Source: Bacteroidales bacterium
GTDB lineage: Bacteria; Bacteroidota; Bacteroidia; Bacteroidales; UBA12077
Assembly (NCBI GenBank): GCA_019038645.1
Contig: JAHOYT010000003.1
Location: 31,527-95,526 of the forward strand
Length of the DNA: 64,000 nt
Reading direction: 5' to 3'
The translations under genes were made by a program, and so were the position numbers. The notes beneath the pieces are model-generated. The model was not told the DNA's origin, did not search any database, and worked only from the letters and a program-made list of their open reading frames with translations. This document shows positions 35,358 to 44,482 of the stretch, one piece after another (within the stretch, counting starts at the first letter, position 1; every line of letters begins with the position of its first letter).

Positions 35358-35831
35358 TTAGTATTCAAACGATCTGCCAGTAATTGATTCAACAGGAATT
35401 TTAATTATTAAAATATTATCCACAGATGGTTTAGAGTATTCAAATTCTTTATCGGAGTAATTTTTCATAAATACATTTAATGCTTTTATTTTTTCATCAT
35501 AGTCTTCAATAAAAATTGCATGACCATGAATCAGTACACTTTTATATGCAAATCTCCATGAACATGCAACATGCTCATGTCGCGAGAAAAGTTTATGATC
35601 AGTGTCAAACTCCAGGCAAACTTTATTGTTTCGTTTTAATATATCGATTTTCTTGCCTTCTTCTGCACAATGTAACCAAATAGTCTGGTCCTCATACCCA
35701 AAATTCATTGCCAGAACATAGGGGTCATCTCCATCGACCATACCAACCCGGCAAATTTTGCATTTCATAATGATTTCTTCAAGTTTATCCAGCTCTATAA
35801 TATCTTTAATTGCATTATCACGCTTAGCCAT
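35358..35831 (-). CDS. Pyridoxamine 5'-phosphate oxidase family (NimA-like) flavoprotein
   Basis: CRVGMVDGDDPYVLAMNFGYEDQTIWLHCAEEGKKIDILKRN; start trimmed. Confidence 0.88.
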   Translation of the reverse strand: MAKRDNAIKDIIELDKLEEIIMKCKICRVGMVDGDDPYVLAMNFGYEDQTIWLHCAEEGKKIDILKRNNKVCLEFDTDHKLFSRHEHVACSWRFAYKSVLIHGHAIFIEDYDEKIKALNVFMKNYSDKEFEYSKPSVDNILIIKIPVESITGRSFEY

Positions 35832-35910: not shown

Positions 35911-37968
35911 TTAGTTTTCTGTCATATTAAGCAAAGGCAATGTAAAAGTAATTGCAGTTCCTTTTCCTTTTTCACTTTCAATATAAATGTCGCCATTGTT
36001 AATTTTTACAAACTCTTTACAAAAGAAAAGGCCCAAACCTTTACCCGTTTCACCTTTGGTTCCACCTCCATGACCATTAGCCAATTCGAATATCATTTTC
36101 TTCTTTTCTGTTGGTATTCCTATTCCTGAATCTTTCACCCAAATTTTAGCAAATTGCTGATTACTATCTATTCCAACAACAATCTCCCCTTTTTCCGGAG
36201 TGAACTTTACAGCATTATTCAATAAATTTCTCATTACTGTGAATAACATATTTCTATCTGCAAAGACCATTATATCTTTTGAAAATGTAAATTTCAAATC
36301 AATATTTTTAATTTCGGCAATAGGGCGATAAACATCTATTGTTTCTGCTAAATTTTCCTTAAGGTCAATATTCTCTGGCTTATAAGGAAATTCCCCCTGC
36401 TGGTTTAATGCCCAGTTTAGTAAATTATCTATTAAAGACAATACATTATTTACAGATATCTCCAGCGTTTTTGAAAGTTTGCTTAAGGAATCAAAATCCT
36501 GCTCTTCGACCCAATAAGGTATTAATTGAGTAATACTTTCCATAGAAATCAGTGGACTTCTGAGGTCATGTGCAATTATTTGAAATAAACGGTCTTTAGT
36601 ATTATTTGATTCCAATAATTTTTCATTTTGATCTACAATTTCAGCTCTCTGATCAATAATTTTTTTATTTTTCCTAATAAGAAATGCTACAAAAACAATG
36701 GCAAATACAACAAATATTATTAATATATTTTTTTGAAAATTTTTTTTATTAGCTTCAATGGTTTTTTTTGAATAATTAAGTTTTTGAATTTCCTGTTCTT
36801 TTTCTAAAAAAGCAATCTGTTGTTCTCGTTTTTCAGCATCGTATCTATGTTCGAGTTCGGTAATTTGTTTTATTTTTTCTAGTCCCAGCAAACTATCACT
36901 TACACTTTGATAAATCTTTTGGTAATATAAACCATTTTTATAATCCCCCGTTATTTGGTATGCCCAAATTAAACTTTCGGAAAGATTTTTCCATTTTAGA
37001 AGATTTCCTTGATCTTTAGCTAAGTTATAAGCTCTTAGTAAATAGGCAAAACCTTCATTATAGTTTCTTTCAATTATTAGAACATTACCCAAACCTTGCA
37101 AGGTATATATAAGTCTATCTTGTTCTCCGATTTCCTCTTCAATTTCCAGAGCTTTTAAATAATAATTCTTAGCACTTTTAAAATACCGTTTAATTTGGTA
37201 GATATCACCCATGTTTTGCAACAATGATAACTGATAATATTTATTTGTATTTTTATCTATTAAATTAATAGCCTCTTTATAATAATCTAAAGCTTTATTG
37301 TTTTCATTTGTTTCTCTATAAACTGCTCCTATATTCATTAATGTTTTAAATATCAACTCCTTGTCTACACCTAATTTACGTCTAACTTCCAAATTTTGCA
37401 AATGAAAATCAAGAGATTTTTCATATTCTCCCATTTCAAGATATAAAACCCCCAAGTTATTCATTACATAACTAACTTTCACAGAATCACTTATTTCTGT
37501 GTATATTTTAAGGCTGGATATGAAATATTCTACAGATTTTTTATAATCCCCAACCCTTTTATAAGTATTTCCCAAAGAATTCAGCACTCTTGCTTTTTCT
37601 TCAGATTTATCCATTTTTTCAAATAAATTATATGATTTTTTTGAATACTCTATAGCTTTTTGATAATTACTTTGATACCGTAAAACCAAACCTAATTGAA
37701 ATAAGCTCTTTGCAGTTCCATATTCAAAATCTAATTCCTCAGATATGTCCAAAGCCTTTTGTCCTAAAATAAATGCGGTATCTAATTGAAATTCCAGATA
37801 TTTAAAAGAAAGTTCATTAAGCTCTAAAACTTTTAATGAATCATCAGGTAATGAATTGACATAAAAGAATAAACTATCAGGAGCAGTATTTTGTAATCTT
37901 TCTTCACCAAATATATAAAATGAAGAAAAAAGAAAGATTGAAACAAAACAATAATAAACGAAACCCAC
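35911..37968 (-). CDS. Periplasmic-TPR sensor histidine kinase (paralog 1)
   Basis: Signal peptide, multiple TPRs, one TM, H-box IIAHDLRSPLISMESI, HATPase G-boxes. Confidence 0.93.
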   Translation of the reverse strand: MGFVYYCFVSIFLFSSFYIFGEERLQNTAPDSLFFYVNSLPDDSLKVLELNELSFKYLEFQLDTAFILGQKALDISEELDFEYGTAKSLFQLGLVLRYQSNYQKAIEYSKKSYNLFEKMDKSEEKARVLNSLGNTYKRVGDYKKSVEYFISSLKIYTEISDSVKVSYVMNNLGVLYLEMGEYEKSLDFHLQNLEVRRKLGVDKELIFKTLMNIGAVYRETNENNKALDYYKEAINLIDKNTNKYYQLSLLQNMGDIYQIKRYFKSAKNYYLKALEIEEEIGEQDRLIYTLQGLGNVLIIERNYNEGFAYLLRAYNLAKDQGNLLKWKNLSESLIWAYQITGDYKNGLYYQKIYQSVSDSLLGLEKIKQITELEHRYDAEKREQQIAFLEKEQEIQKLNYSKKTIEANKKNFQKNILIIFVVFAIVFVAFLIRKNKKIIDQRAEIVDQNEKLLESNNTKDRLFQIIAHDLRSPLISMESITQLIPYWVEEQDFDSLSKLSKTLEISVNNVLSLIDNLLNWALNQQGEFPYKPENIDLKENLAETIDVYRPIAEIKNIDLKFTFSKDIMVFADRNMLFTVMRNLLNNAVKFTPEKGEIVVGIDSNQQFAKIWVKDSGIGIPTEKKKMIFELANGHGGGTKGETGKGLGLFFCKEFVKINNGDIYIESEKGKGTAITFTLPLLNMTEN

Positions 37969-37991
37969 CTTTTATACAATTTAATGTAGCA

Positions 37992-37999
37992 CAAACATA
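37992..37999 (-). promoter_or_regulatory. Possible -7 promoter element (TATGTTTG) for TPR-HK 1
   Basis: CAAACATA on plus strand, between peptide-gene terminator and kinase start; no well-spaced -33 seen. Confidence 0.35.
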
Positions 38000-38012
38000 G
38001 TTAATTAATATC

Positions 38013-38044
38013 AAAAAAATAACTGCTTGAATTTACAAACAGTT
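38013..38044 (-). terminator. Intrinsic terminator of the 30-aa peptide gene
   Basis: Minus strand AACTGTTTG-TAAATT-CAAGCAGTT-A-TTTTTTT (9-bp stem with one G-T, U-tract). Confidence 0.8.
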
Positions 38045-38059
38045 ATCTAATTTTTTGAA

Positions 38060-38152
38060 TTAATCATCCTCCTCAGTTGTAGGAGGTGGTTTTGGTGGAT
38101 CTGGATCTGGATCTGGCACTCTGTTTACAATTGAATAGTTAAATAATTTCAT
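38060..38152 (-). CDS. Tiny Pro/Asp-rich peptide (30 aa) MKLFNYSIVNRVPDPDPDPPKPPPTTEEDD
   Basis: Manual translation; below the ORF-track cutoff; followed by its own terminator; upstream of TPR-HK 1. Confidence 0.6.
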   Translation of the reverse strand: MKLFNYSIVNRVPDPDPDPPKPPPTTEEDD

Positions 38153-38368
38153 GTTCTTTATATTTTAGTTAATCGTATTAAAACTAATTAAAAAAATCGA
38201 GTTTTCTATGAATCATGCAAAAAACACTTATTTACATTGCTGTATTTCAGCCACTTCACAAATCAGCAATCCGTTTTTCGACATTCATATTTTGAGTCAT
38301 AAATGGGTGTGAGAAAATAAATTAGATAACTATTAAACAAGTTGAATCATGTTGAAACCTAGCCAAAT

Positions 38369-40459
38369 TTAGTTCTCTGCAATATTAAATAATGGTAATG
38401 TAAAAGTTATTTTAGTACCCTTACCTTTTTCACTTTCTATATAAATATCTCCATTATTTAACTTTACGAACTCTTTACAAAAGAAAAGGCCCAATCCTTT
38501 TCCTGTTTCACCTTTTGTGTCTTTTGTGCGACCATTGGCTAGTTCAAAAATTTCATCTTTTTTATTATCCGGAATGCCAATACCAGAATCTGCGACCCAA
38601 ATTTTAGCATACTGTTGATTACTATCAACTCCAACTATTATTTCACCTTTTTCAGGTGTAAATTTTATGGCATTGTTTAGCAAATTCCTCATTACGGTGA
38701 AAAGCATGTTTCTGTCGGCAAAAACCATCACATTTTTTGTAATCTGCAATTTCAAATTGATATTTTTCATTTGCGCAATTGGTCGGTAAACATCAATCGT
38801 TTCAGCGATATTTTCTTTGAGTTTTAGATTTTCAGGTTTATAAGGGAATTTTCCCTGCTGATTTAATGCCCAGTTTAACAGATTATCAATTAATGACAAT
38901 ACATTATTCACAGAAAGCTCAAGAGTTTTTGAAAGTCTGCTTAAGGACTCAAAGTCTTGTTCTTCAATCCAATATGGAACTAACTGCGTAATACTTTCCA
39001 TTGATACCAAAGGACTTCTAAGGTCATGAGCAATAATTTGAAATAAACGATCTTTGGTATTATTGGATTCGAGTAAATCTTTATTTTGATTTGCTATTTC
39101 AGTTCGCTGATCAGTGATCTTTTCATTTTGCTTTAATAGCAAGCGATTAAGCTTTTTACGTTTTTTGCTATCAATAAAATAATAAATTAATAATGAAACT
39201 ACCATTATAACAAGAATAACCAGGGCATTACGCTGAAAACTCTTCTGCTTATTTTCTATTTCTTTTTTTGATAATTCGAGTTGATGTATTTCTTGTTCTT
39301 TTTCTAAGAAAGCAATTTGTTGCTTCCTTTTTTCCGTCTCAAACTTTTGTTCCAACTCAACAATTTGTGCTTTTCTTTCAAAACTATATATACTATCTTC
39401 CAATGCGACAAATTCTCTCAAATAAAAAATACTGTTTTTATAATCACCATAGTTAAAGTATACTTCATACAAATTTCTTGATAATCTATGTTCTTTTCTT
39501 ACATCCTTTATTTCTTTTGCCAGATCATAACTTTGTAATAAATATTTTTCGCCATCTTTAAAACTTCCTTCTTTTATTAAAGAATTTCCAAGTCCTTGCA
39601 ACGAGAAAACTAGCATTTCTTTAAAGTTAATTTCTTTTTCAAGCTGAATTGCTATTAAATAATATTGTTTAGCACTTCTATAATCTTCAGTCGCTTCATT
39701 AATCAGAGCTATATTATGAACTAATAGCGATTTGTCATATTTATTTCCGTCTTCTCCAATTAAATCTAATGCTTCCTTATAGTGCAATATTGCCTTATCA
39801 TATTCATGCAAACCTTCATAGTTATTCCCAATATTCATTAAAGCAATTGGGATATTGCTCCATGAATTTAATTTCTTTTTTATTTCTAAACCCTGAAGTT
39901 CATATTCCAAAGATTTCTCATAATCTCCCAATTCATTATACAAAATCCCAATATTATTTAACACTGAAGATATCCCAACAGAATCTTCTAATTCTTTATA
40001 AACCTTTAGGCTTTTTGTAAAACTCTCTATAGATAACTCATACTCTCCGTATCTTTTATAAACATTAGCCATTCTATTTAATACACTTGCCCGTTCTGAA
40101 TCAATTTTAAGGCTATCAAACAAGATTAACGACTTTTTATAATAATATAAAGAAGAATCAAATTGAGCCATATACTTAAAAACTAATCCCATTTGATTTA
40201 AAGAAGTAGCATATCCAAAACTATAATCTAATTTCTTTGAAAGTGTTATGGACTTTTTACAAAGCACATAAGACGTATCTAATTGTACCTTAAGATATTT
40301 ATAGGAAAGACTCTTTAGTTGCAATACTTTGTTTGTATCATCACGTGCAATATGCACCTCTGTTCTAAGACTATCTAATTTGCTATCCGCACCATAGGCA
40401 GTATCTGTAGCGCCTAAGGATAAAATATACAATACTATGAATCCAACTAAATATTTCAT
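38369..40459 (-). CDS. Periplasmic-TPR sensor histidine kinase (paralog 2)
   Basis: Same architecture as 35911-37968; kinase domain almost identical. Confidence 0.93.
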   Translation of the reverse strand: MKYLVGFIVLYILSLGATDTAYGADSKLDSLRTEVHIARDDTNKVLQLKSLSYKYLKVQLDTSYVLCKKSITLSKKLDYSFGYATSLNQMGLVFKYMAQFDSSLYYYKKSLILFDSLKIDSERASVLNRMANVYKRYGEYELSIESFTKSLKVYKELEDSVGISSVLNNIGILYNELGDYEKSLEYELQGLEIKKKLNSWSNIPIALMNIGNNYEGLHEYDKAILHYKEALDLIGEDGNKYDKSLLVHNIALINEATEDYRSAKQYYLIAIQLEKEINFKEMLVFSLQGLGNSLIKEGSFKDGEKYLLQSYDLAKEIKDVRKEHRLSRNLYEVYFNYGDYKNSIFYLREFVALEDSIYSFERKAQIVELEQKFETEKRKQQIAFLEKEQEIHQLELSKKEIENKQKSFQRNALVILVIMVVSLLIYYFIDSKKRKKLNRLLLKQNEKITDQRTEIANQNKDLLESNNTKDRLFQIIAHDLRSPLVSMESITQLVPYWIEEQDFESLSRLSKTLELSVNNVLSLIDNLLNWALNQQGKFPYKPENLKLKENIAETIDVYRPIAQMKNINLKLQITKNVMVFADRNMLFTVMRNLLNNAIKFTPEKGEIIVGVDSNQQYAKIWVADSGIGIPDNKKDEIFELANGRTKDTKGETGKGLGLFFCKEFVKLNNGDIYIESEKGKGTKITFTLPLFNIAEN

Positions 40460-40474
40460 TACATTAAAGTGTTT

Positions 40475-40816
40475 TTACTCAAGTTCTCCATTCCCTGAAC
40501 CCGTCTTACCTTCTCCATCAGGATCTCCGTTTCTTAATAAATTATCATAATTTTTAACTATGATTTTAATGTTATTCAATTGCTTAACATCCGATGGTGT
40601 TAATTCAATATTAAATTCTTCCATTTTTTCCTTTTCAGCATCTAAAGAATCATTCTTTTCTTTTAATTTAATTCGAACTTCCCAGTAATCATTAATATAA
40701 TTTTGCTCAATTGCATCTTCGACACAATTGCCTGGCATTTTAACTATTACATCTAAGCGATAGTTCGTTGTTCCGGCTTTATAAAACAGATTAAAATAAG
40801 GATAATAAAGTTTCAT
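40475..40816 (-). CDS. 113-aa protein with acidic Gly/Ser-rich C-terminal tail, operonic with TPR-HK 2
   Basis: 15-bp gap to kinase; tail DGEGKTGSGNGELE resembles DGDGGTGSGSGDID of the 36-aa peptide. Confidence 0.65.
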   Translation of the reverse strand: MKLYYPYFNLFYKAGTTNYRLDVIVKMPGNCVEDAIEQNYINDYWEVRIKLKEKNDSLDAEKEKMEEFNIELTPSDVKQLNNIKIIVKNYDNLLRNGDPDGEGKTGSGNGELE

Positions 40817-40893
40817 TTGATTTATTTAAATGTTAAACAATAAGTTAATTAAAGTTAACATAAAAAAAACTAACTCCAATAGTCATTAAAAAC

Positions 40894-40920
40894 AAAAAAG
40901 ACACAGAAATTACCTGTGCC
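40894..40920 (-). terminator. Intrinsic terminator of the 36-aa peptide gene
   Basis: Minus strand GGCACAG-GTAATTT-CTGTGTC-TTTTTT. Confidence 0.8.
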
Positions 40921-40941
40921 TTTGAATACATTAACATCAGG

Positions 40942-41052
40942 TTAAGAATCTATATCTCCACTACCTGATCCGGTACCACCATCACCATCGTCAGCACCTC
41001 CCTTAATAATAAGCATTTCTTCAATTGTTAATTGTAATTCATCTGTAAACAT
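40942..41052 (-). CDS. Double-glycine-leader-type peptide (36 aa) MFTDELQLTIEEMLIIKGGADDGDGGTGSGSGDIDS
   Basis: Manual translation; LTIEEMLIIKGG matches GG-type leader pattern; own terminator downstream. Confidence 0.65.
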   Translation of the reverse strand: MFTDELQLTIEEMLIIKGGADDGDGGTGSGSGDIDS

Positions 41053-41136: not shown

Positions 41137-41652
41137 TCACATATAATTTTGTCTTTGCCATTCAAATAAAACAGCTGCTAATGCATGCGAAACATTAAGC
41201 GATGTGTTGTTCCCATACAAAGGGATATGCACAATTTCACTGCACAAATCCAGTACTTTGGGGTCAATACCTGAAGCTTCGTTCCCAACAATAAATGCTA
41301 CTTTTTGAGGAAGTTTGGTTTGAAAAACACTAAGTGAGTCACTGGAAGTTTCTATAGCTATCCAATTGTAGTCAGCCGGAATTTTACTTTGTAACTCTTC
41401 AATGGAACAAAAACTCCACGAAATAGAATCAAAACTTGAAGAAGCGGTCCTTTTTATTTTCGAAACACGCATATTTTCTTCATCCGAAACAATAATAACC
41501 TCTTTACAACCAACATTGTCGCCTAAGCGTATTATGTTTCCAATATTCTCAGGAGTTTTAATATTATATCCAATAATAATCGGTAGACAATATTTTTCCG
41601 GCAATGATTTGTTTTTAAATAAATATTTAGAATGGATAGTTCTTTTCGCCAT
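41137..41652 (-). CDS. TrmH/SpoU-family RNA 2'-O-methyltransferase
   Basis: IGYNIKTPENIGNIIRLGDNVG..VAFIVGNEASGI..LNVSHALA. Confidence 0.92.
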   Translation of the reverse strand: MAKRTIHSKYLFKNKSLPEKYCLPIIIGYNIKTPENIGNIIRLGDNVGCKEVIIVSDEENMRVSKIKRTASSSFDSISWSFCSIEELQSKIPADYNWIAIETSSDSLSVFQTKLPQKVAFIVGNEASGIDPKVLDLCSEIVHIPLYGNNTSLNVSHALAAVLFEWQRQNYM

Positions 41653-42213: not shown

Positions 42214-42903
42214 TTAAACAATTAATTTATACCCTTTCCCATGAATATTTAATATTTGAATTGAAGAATCATCTCTCAAATATTTTCTAAGTTTTGTAAT
42301 ATAAACATCCATGCTACGTGCATTAAAATAACTATCTTCCTGCCAGATTGTATTTAGAGCAAAGTTTCTTTCCAGAATGTTATTCATGTTATCACACAAT
42401 AACTTTAACAACTCGGATTCTTTGGTCGTTAATTTTTGTTCTCTGCCACTATATTTAAGGATTTGCTTTTGCGAATCAAAATCATAATCCCCAATTTTAT
42501 ATTTTTCATCAGGCTGTATAGTATTATTATCTGTTCTACGGAGGATAGCCCGAATACGGAATAATAATTCTTCCATACTAAATGGTTTGGTCATATAATC
42601 ATCAGCTCCAGCTGTAAATCCTTCAATTACGTCTTCTTTTAATGATTTAGCTGTCAGAAAGATAAAAGGGACTTTTTTATTCTGCTTTCTTATTTCCCTT
42701 GCCAGCGTAAAACCGTCCATTTTAGGCATCATAACATCAAGTAAACACAAATCATACTTGTTTTTCCTAAATCCTGCAAGAGCAAGTTCCCCGTTAACAA
42801 AAAGATCTGTATTTAATCCTTTTGCAATTAAGTACTCTCTTAATAAGGATCCAAGATTTTCGTCATCTTCAGCCAATAAAACTTTTAAATTTTTTTCATC
42901 CAT
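42214..42903 (-). CDS. OmpR-family response regulator (RprY-like)
   Basis: REC plus winged helix. Confidence 0.93.
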   Translation of the reverse strand: MDEKNLKVLLAEDDENLGSLLREYLIAKGLNTDLFVNGELALAGFRKNKYDLCLLDVMMPKMDGFTLAREIRKQNKKVPFIFLTAKSLKEDVIEGFTAGADDYMTKPFSMEELLFRIRAILRRTDNNTIQPDEKYKIGDYDFDSQKQILKYSGREQKLTTKESELLKLLCDNMNNILERNFALNTIWQEDSYFNARSMDVYITKLRKYLRDDSSIQILNIHGKGYKLIV

Positions 42904-44482
42904 TGTTTATGTTGTTATTTGGAAAAAATATTTCAAATGTTGTTCCTTTATTAAATTCAGAAGCTAACTTTATTTCACCTCCATGTGCAGCAACAATTTT
43001 TTTAACATAGCTTAGTCCCAGTCCAAATCCTTTTACATCATGAACATTTCCTGTCGACACACGATAAAATTGATCATAAATTCTTTTCTGCTCCTGTTTT
43101 CTTATACCAATTCCTTTATCTGAAACCGAAATACTTAATCCATTTTTGGTTTCTTTTGTGCTTATTAATATCTCCGGATTCTCTTTGCTGTACTTTACTG
43201 CATTGTCAAGCAAGTTAAAAATAATATTTGTAAAATGGACCTTATCAATATTCAAAACTGGTTTTTTAGCTTCGAGTTTCCTGATTAATTTACCGTTTTT
43301 AGATTTAACCTGAATCTCGAAATTTTTAATAACATTCTCAATTATATTATGAATATTTAATTCCCGAAGTTTTAGGTTAATTTGACCCTGATCAAAAAGG
43401 GCTGTTTTTAGCACCTTCTCAACCTGATAACTCAACCTTTTGCTTTCATCATCAATTATTCCGGAAATATAGGCCAGATTCTTTGCTTCTGTAGGAATAC
43501 TATTATCCTTTAGCATCTGAGATGCAAGCGAAATAGTTGATATTGGCGTTTTTAGTTCATGTGTCATATTATTAACAAAATCATTTTTTATTTGAGAAAG
43601 TCTCTTTTGTTTAAACATAATATGTATTGATAAAGAAAACCCCAGTAAAATGATTATTGTTAGTAAAACCGAGGAAAAAGCCATAAATCCGGTTGATTTT
43701 AAAATAAAGCTTCGCTCCTCAGGGAAGAAAACATAAAGATAATTTCCTTTAGCAAAAACATCTTTTGGAAATAATTGCGCCGAGAATTTTCTTGTTTTTA
43801 TCTGTTCCGAGTAATTAGCCGAATTATAAACTATTTTATATTTATTTTTTGTTACTGCATATTCATAATCTATATCAATTCCTAAATCAGTAAAGGTTCT
43901 TTCTAATATCATCTCTACAGTTTCTTTATCAATACGATCTTCTAATTCAACATCAATTTGTATCAGCTTATTCACAACATTTTCAACAAAAATAGTTCTG
44001 TTATTCAATTTTTCAGTAAAATCACTATTAACTCTTAAATTACCAAAGCCCTGTTGCTTGTTTTCATTACCTAGCTGCAAACCTGATTTGTTTCTAAATT
44101 GTATAGCATTATTAGCAAGTAACTGTAACTGAGATCTGATATTTAATGAATCGCTTTCATTAATAATAAAAACTTCTTTTTCTTCATCAGTTGTTGATAA
44201 GCTAAATGTACTCTGATTAAGTTTATTTAATTTATAAGTTATGGAAGGCGTCCCTGTTGGAGATACATCCTGATATGGGTCCATCTCGTTTACAACCTGT
44301 GATATAACTTCTCTGTTTTCAATTTCCTCAACAATGTTTTCCATCCCTTTTATAACAAGCTGATGAAATTGTTCCTCGTTAATTTTAATCGCATTATTTA
44401 TCCAGTAAGCCTGAACAAATATCAGACACATTAATGTAACAGATAAAGTTATTGTAATAATCCACAGTATTTTTCTTTGCAT
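42896..44482 (-). CDS. Sensor histidine kinase (RprX-like)
   Basis: 2 TM, FVNNMTHELKTPISTISLAS H-box, overlaps cognate RR. Confidence 0.93.
   Translation of the reverse strand: MQRKILWIITITLSVTLMCLIFVQAYWINNAIKINEEQFHQLVIKGMENIVEEIENREVISQVVNEMDPYQDVSPTGTPSITYKLNKLNQSTFSLSTTDEEKEVFIINESDSLNIRSQLQLLANNAIQFRNKSGLQLGNENKQQGFGNLRVNSDFTEKLNNRTIFVENVVNKLIQIDVELEDRIDKETVEMILERTFTDLGIDIDYEYAVTKNKYKIVYNSANYSEQIKTRKFSAQLFPKDVFAKGNYLYVFFPEERSFILKSTGFMAFSSVLLTIIILLGFSLSIHIMFKQKRLSQIKNDFVNNMTHELKTPISTISLASQMLKDNSIPTEAKNLAYISGIIDDESKRLSYQVEKVLKTALFDQGQINLKLRELNIHNIIENVIKNFEIQVKSKNGKLIRKLEAKKPVLNIDKVHFTNIIFNLLDNAVKYSKENPEILISTKETKNGLSISVSDKGIGIRKQEQKRIYDQFYRVSTGNVHDVKGFGLGLSYVKKIVAAHGGEIKLASEFNKGTTFEIFFPNNNINNG

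Follow-up and report, generated by a model that had tools for sequence, protein, structure and literature searches.

Small acidic-tail proteins encoded beside FimS-like TPR histidine kinases suggest a peptide-signalling cassette in uncultured Bacteroidales

In the 64-kb stretch of DNA analyzed here (the window; contig C5 of a 3.39-Mb genome from an uncultured member of the Bacteroidales, G000), two paralogous histidine kinases with tetratricopeptide repeats (TPRs) lie next to three small open reading frames (ORFs) whose products end in acidic, low-complexity tails. In transcription order on the minus strand the locus comprises a 36-aa ORF with a double-glycine (GG) leader, a terminator, a 113-aa ORF, the kinase TPR-HK2, a 30-aa ORF, a second terminator and the kinase TPR-HK1. 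Across related genomes, the type of small protein and its tail vary together with the periplasmic TPR sensor, whereas no such link is seen for the kinase half. Our preferred explanation, to which we assign a probability of roughly 0.55, is that the tails are the cognate ligands of the adjacent FimS-like kinases and that the locus represents a genus-specific ligand–receptor cassette, for which we infer binding, export, signalling and output. A preliminary description of the locus had proposed the peptides as ligands or modulators of the neighbouring kinases. In favour of this proposal are the conservation of the small genes, their co-variation with the sensor and the presence of a C39 exporter in the genome; overall, the earlier interpretation is partly supported.

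Small tail-bearing genes upstream of the kinases

The type A peptide (36 aa; 40942..41052, minus strand) consists of the GG leader MFTDELQLTIEEMLIIKGG followed by the tail ADDGDGGTGSGSGDIDS, and the type B peptide (30 aa; 38060..38152, minus strand) of MKLFNYSIVNRVP followed by the tail DPDPDPPKPPPTTEEDD. The type C protein (113 aa; 40475..40816, minus strand) bears a beta-rich domain (approximately residues 1–93) and the disordered tail NGDPDGEGKTGSGNGELE. We include it in the set, as the preliminary description had not, because it ends in the same kind of tail and is the commonest partner of the kinases. The positions given earlier for the elements on the minus strand were all confirmed. That each of the two paralogs is preceded by a tiny gene is true in the window and undersells the arrangement, as the 113-aa tail protein stands directly before TPR-HK2 and the system is genus-wide.

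A tail was scored when at least 12 of the last 15 residues were D, E, G, P, S, T or N and at least three were acidic. Among the 36 intergenic small ATG ORFs of the window three passed, exactly the 36-aa, 113-aa and 30-aa ORFs, and none of 7119 small ORFs did so in simulated DNA built from the window's second-order Markov statistics. The orthologous kinase clade is present in 18 of 20 genomes of the genus, mostly at the site between a TrmH-like and a pyridoxamine-oxidase-like (PNPOx) gene and sometimes in two copies; in G007 this site holds TrmH, a 132-aa gene and PNPOx and no cassette. Directly upstream of every clade kinase (22/22) lies a tail-bearing small ORF, 20 of which pass the strict test, with those of G006 and G012 missing it on the acidic count. 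No such ORF was found upstream of the 28 TPR kinases examined from the order's other families (three of these have <170 nt of upstream sequence), and we therefore rejected the tail ORF as a general feature of TPR kinases. The preliminary description had made its proposal dependent on conservation of the tiny ORFs next to orthologous kinases, and the proposal withstands this comparison because they are conserved there in the genus genomes.

Type C proteins (112–118 aa) occur in 12 of the 20 genus genomes, and none was found in 390 other genomes or in any other genus among the 393 genomes sampled in the order. Type B peptides, with the leader MKLxxYxIVxRVP, were found in six genomes, and the kinase behind them always belongs to the B clade where its TPR half is complete. 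Type A occurs in five genus genomes, and other N-terminal modules are single cases in G008, G010, G011 and G012; several of the GG-less leaders end in [RK][VMF]P immediately before the tail. Further peptides were sought by profile searches only. NCBIfam and Pfam hold no convincing curated family for the small ORFs, and type C has no Pfam family. Judged from sequence, the cassette is conserved throughout the genus, with several interchangeable N-terminal modules.

The type A and type B ORFs keep their frame and change length in-frame, and nonsynonymous differences (pN) are less frequent than synonymous ones (pS) in most pairs: pN<pS holds for type A in all pairs (G018/G011 being marginal) and for type B in most. 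The window and G019, a very close pair, differ by two changes only, both nonsynonymous, and are uninformative. The small peptides are conserved genes. The motif [TC]AAAA precedes 25 of 26 peptide starts at −22 to −7, including that of the window's type A peptide; among the starts of neighbouring genes it does so in 14 of 91, and among the remaining ATGs nearby in 11 of 143. Flavobacterium johnsoniae has an excess of adenines at −14 to −11, and these correlate with ribosome density (PMC6847099); by its sequence, the adenine run of the peptide starts matches this signal for efficient translation in Bacteroidetes.

The hairpin and U-tract noted earlier after both tiny ORFs proved to be real. The intrinsic terminator 3′ of the type A peptide lies at 40897..40923 (minus strand; AAAGGCACAG..CTGTGTCTTT plus a T-run, −12.7 kcal/mol) and that of the type B peptide at 38018..38047 (minus strand; GATAACTGTTTG..CAAGCAGTTATT plus a T-run, −12.8 kcal/mol). 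A strong terminator of the ATAACTGTTTG..CAAACAGTTAT type with a U-tract follows all six type B peptides, and terminators were also found after the type A peptides of G017, G005 and G011, with a weaker one in G018. In 6/6 type B loci the element TATGTTTG stands 60–70 nt past the stop codon, after the terminator and before the kinase (37992..37999, minus strand, between terminator and TPR-HK1 in the window). It matches the −7 promoter element of Bacteroidetes and fits the TAnnTTTG sequence of their promoters. Of the discrete small transcripts proposed before, the 30-aa type does look like a discrete transcription unit, with its terminator and then a separate predicted promoter element for the kinase. 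The window's type C gene has no terminator before its kinase; TPR-HK2 starts 15 nt after it, so that the two are likely co-transcribed.

A tiny ORF followed by a terminator and a regulated gene is also the classic layout of leader-peptide attenuation, which the preliminary description did not consider. Translation of the tiny ORF, with stalling at Pro or acidic codons, would then set terminator read-through into the kinase gene, and several tails are indeed poly-Pro. We consider attenuation improbable because a separate predicted promoter element lies past the terminator in all type B loci and because the tail is shared with the 113-aa protein, whose gene lacks a terminator before the kinase in the window. 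Moreover, Pro-free Gly/Ser/Asp tails occur in the same position, and a search of Rfam at gathering thresholds matched no family and thus no known RNA element.

Kinase architecture and the contrasting trees of its two halves

TPR-HK2 (696 aa; 38369..40459, minus strand) is composed of a signal peptide, eight TPRs that are periplasmic by topology, a coiled coil, a transmembrane (TM) segment, HisKA and HATPase_c. TPR-HK1 (685 aa; 35911..37968, minus strand) has the same architecture and a GTG start that aligns with the ATG of relatives. Both match TPR_12 repeats and HATPase_c, with HisKA slightly below the Pfam cut-off (24 vs 26.9 bits); the N-terminal and TM hydrophobic stretches were read directly from the sequence. 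Each kinase thus has the FimS-like architecture of signal peptide, multiple TPRs, one TM, HisKA and HATPase_c, and Porphyromonas FimS (NF053520) was the best NCBIfam match for both. Since the scores of 252.8 and 263.2 bits fall under the curated cut-off of 600, they are not FimS itself, and we rejected that assignment. A relative of the TPR kinases at G000:C9:63592-65543 carries several in-frame stops and is an apparent pseudogene.

In the AlphaFold2 model of the TPR-HK2 ectodomain, eight TPRs run into a long helix (mean predicted local distance difference test score, pLDDT, 89.9). The closest solved folds are those of LGN in peptide complexes (4wnd, TM-score 0.76/0.87), and the list of fold matches also holds Rap proteins with pheromones and NprR–NprX. 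A literature search on the LGN peptide motif found no papers. For the type C protein the model gives a beta-rich domain and a disordered tail (mean pLDDT 77.9, tail <50), and its fold has no significant match in the PDB (best E 0.69).

In a tree of the TPR halves, the type B kinases with a complete TPR half (n = 5) form one clade with 100/100 support, which corresponds to a single change of state. In the tree of the kinase halves, by contrast, the type B kinases need four changes, and a joint clade was rejected in the approximately unbiased test (p-AU 0.012). TPR-HK1 and TPR-HK2 share 45% identity in the TPR half and 82% in the kinase half, compared with 81% and 75% for TPR-HK1 and the type B kinase of G017; it follows that paralogs have exchanged their output halves or kept them alike. 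The sensor half, by contrast, stays with its peptide type. Residues of the groove differ with type: positions 125/129 of repeat 3, which flank the invariant Asn128, are R/S in four of five B kinases (E/S in G006) and S/R in seven of nine main-clade C kinases (I/R and G/R in the remaining two), and groove positions of repeat 2 are also type-specific. An Asn recurs every 40 residues in the TPR domain (128, 169, 209, 249); such recurring Asn residues are a general feature of peptide-binding TPRs and do not prove binding.

The tails themselves follow their neighbours. Type A peptides beside a type C gene (G000, G017, G018) have a Gly/Thr-rich, C-like tail, in G005, where the neighbour is a type B gene, the type A tail is poly-Pro and terminates in PGEDD as the neighbour's does, and the type A tail of G011 matches the adjacent D-type peptide. 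When type A tails were compared with those of the partner peptides, the true pairing was the best of 120 permutations over these five loci, which are few and not independent of one another.

Part of this pattern could arise without interaction if recombination carried small genes of unrelated function along with the kinase gene's 5′ half: the peptide gene adjoins the TPR half, and breakpoints between TPR and kinase halves would move both. Such linkage leaves unexplained, however, why every clade kinase has a small gene of this kind, why the tails are common to unrelated leaders and why the type A tail follows its neighbour, and we give it little credence.

Export route, output and the weight of the evidence

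Only type A carries a GG leader, defined as a hydrophobic/acidic pattern ending in GG (LQLTIEEMLIIKGG; the G018 variant has GD), and types B and C do not. The G000 genome encodes a single C39-peptidase ATP-binding cassette (ABC) exporter at C4:104912-107113, followed by an HlyD-like gene and unlinked to the cassette, in agreement with the earlier expectation that export would be encoded elsewhere. C39 domains were found in 18 of the 20 genus genomes. The exporter cluster of G000 contains a GG peptide (MKSLKNIF..LDLNAMIMIKGG + EGDNDDDLWPPTTIPPGND), a HisKA protein, two LytTR proteins and a divergent TPR-CHAT protein, and the cluster, including its own GG peptide, is conserved in the genus. The leader of this C39-linked peptide, LDLNAMIMIKGG, is resembled by that of type A. 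Type A is thus a plausible substrate of this exporter.

Genus-wide, the segment corresponding to G000:C4:99217-107113 (L091/L092) encodes a TPR-CHAT protein with a signal peptide (928 aa), a TPR protein, a HisKA protein with no HATPase match, a divergent GG peptide with an acidic DDDLWPP core, two LytTR proteins, the C39 exporter and HlyD, and in it a TPR protein is again paired with an acidic GG peptide. A 113-aa protein at G000:C4:93309-93650 (L091) has a signal peptide and a tandem repeat around YDYQA. Four tandem GG-leader ORFs lie at ~802-1808 of L177 (G016:C116), with cores such as DGTDRDKIIE, DGDPTSRDNDFD and DGPATSRNEGID. Bacteriocin-like, Cys-containing GG-leader peptides occur near the exporter cluster at L234:13257-14142 (G005) and L239:11555-11728 (G008).

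C39 exporters in Bacteroidetes export GG-leader bacteriocins (PMC6671954). With this precedent, and with Cys-containing GG peptides near the exporter in some genus genomes, the GG peptide might be a bacteriocin-like product whose production is regulated by the kinase. This is very unlikely: the tails are acidic, of low complexity and mostly Cys-free, there is no adjacent immunity, thiol oxidoreductase or exporter gene, and most genomes have the kinase without a GG peptide. Bacteroidetocins resemble type A in being small GG-leader peptides of Bacteroidetes served by a peptidase-domain ABC exporter, but they contain Cys and have neighbouring exporter and thiol oxidoreductase genes (PMC6671954). 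We rejected membership of this group, as the tails of the window are Cys-free and neither gene is among the neighbours.

Next to the ligand cassette, and second in our ranking, stands a cytoplasmic role, in which the small proteins would assist or inhibit the kinase or a shared partner, with the tail as a docking segment and nothing secreted. Types B and C lack a signal peptide or GG site, type C is a folded domain with a disordered tail encoded 15 nt before TPR-HK2 in an operon-like arrangement, and the kinase half is cytoplasmic. However, peptide type tracks the TPR half, which is periplasmic, rather than the kinase half in the cytoplasm, and type A has a clear exporter-type GG leader yet carries the common tail. 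We therefore judge this role unlikely.

In the ligand–receptor cassette that we favour, the periplasmic eight-TPR groove of each FimS-like kinase would sense the tail, acidic and extended, at the C terminus of the small protein or proteins encoded just upstream, and the N-terminal modules (GG leader, MKLxxYxIVxRVP leader, beta domain) would be interchangeable carriers. The GG-leader form would probably have its leader removed and leave the cell through the single C39 ABC exporter encoded at the other locus, and the mature peptide of ~17 aa may re-enter the periplasm, where it would serve as an autocrine signal or one within the population. The kinases would share an output domain kept similar by paralog exchange, while each sensor would diverge jointly with its peptide, as seen in the specificity groups of pheromones.

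Several points weigh against this model. Its weakest one is export of the GG-less carriers: no export signal was recognised in types B and C, yet a periplasmic location is expected for the TPR domain. That TPR half and peptide are inherited together could reflect nothing more than linkage, as the two adjoin on the DNA, and in G014 and G018 a type C gene is paired with a TPR domain outside the main C clade. Local DNA copying is another possible cause of the tail matching. A basic TPR domain matching the acidic tails through global charge was not seen: the TPR domains have a net charge close to zero (−6 to +10, with one at +30) and so do not match the tails electrostatically as a whole. Finally, no dedicated response regulator is assigned to the kinases.

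The earlier statement that no response regulator lies adjacent needs qualifying because an OmpR-type regulator (42214-42903) with its own 528-aa kinase lies on the same strand ~1.2 kb upstream of the cassette (42214-44482), in a block conserved genus-wide. This regulator is a candidate output partner for the orphan TPR kinases. Outside the cassette, its conserved left boundary is the TrmH-like methyltransferase gene (41137..41652, minus strand), the conserved upstream neighbour in the genus genomes, and its conserved right boundary is the PNPOx-like gene (35358..35831, minus strand), the conserved downstream neighbour.

Relation to known systems and significance

FimS of Porphyromonas gingivalis, the TPR histidine kinase studied most closely, has eight periplasmic TPR motifs before a TM and HisKA/HATPase, and its ligand has been proposed to be a polypeptide; the signal is still unidentified in the literature (PMC11053733). 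Both kinases of the window share with FimS the periplasmic eight-TPR domain, the TM and HisKA/HATPase, and differ in that small tail proteins are encoded directly upstream. The RRNPP receptors (Rap, NprR, PlcR) are cytoplasmic proteins of Gram-positive Firmicutes and not histidine kinases (PMC10075063). They resemble the cassette in that a TPR receptor adjoins a small propeptide gene, and Rap and NprR–NprX are among the matches of the TPR model. Membership, for which the TPR receptor would have to be cytoplasmic and to have DNA-binding or Rap activity, was rejected, as the TPR domain lies here between the signal peptide and TM of a histidine kinase. LGN (4wnd, 3ro2), the closest solved fold, holds an extended peptide in an eight-TPR groove, but it is eukaryotic and cytoplasmic with ~18% sequence identity, and the likeness is one of fold only. 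With circuits of the ComC/ComD type the cassette has in common a GG-leader peptide, a C39 exporter in the genome, a membrane histidine kinase and the joint divergence of sensor half and peptide. In contrast, its sensor is built as a TPR solenoid in the periplasm instead of a polytopic membrane domain, its exporter is unlinked and most cassettes use GG-less carriers. If binding is confirmed, the cassette works like a peptide pheromone circuit.

We found no paper describing the pairing of kinase and tail peptide in the open-access literature, subscription papers and preprints being outside the scope of the search. To regard the locus as a new class of Gram-negative peptide signalling, in which periplasmic TPR histidine kinases and adjacent acidic-tail ligands on interchangeable carriers, one of them a C39-exported GG-leader peptide, diversify as pairs against a shared kinase, is a tentative step for which we see slightly less than even odds.

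TPR histidine kinases are common in the Bacteroidales, with strong matches in 79 of 149 genomes of the order. The locus described here places candidate ligands next to the receptor, and these vary together with the receptor's sensor half. The ligand, the specificity residues 125/129 of repeat 3 and the export route are therefore directly testable, and the locus offers a direct way to test peptide ligands for the FimS-like architecture. The pairing of kinase and tail protein in these uncultured Bacteroidales suggests an undescribed Gram-negative peptide-signalling system. If this is true, the tails would be the first candidate ligand class for FimS-like kinases, and the cassette would be a Gram-negative counterpart of peptide pheromone circuits in which sensing is carried out by periplasmic TPRs.

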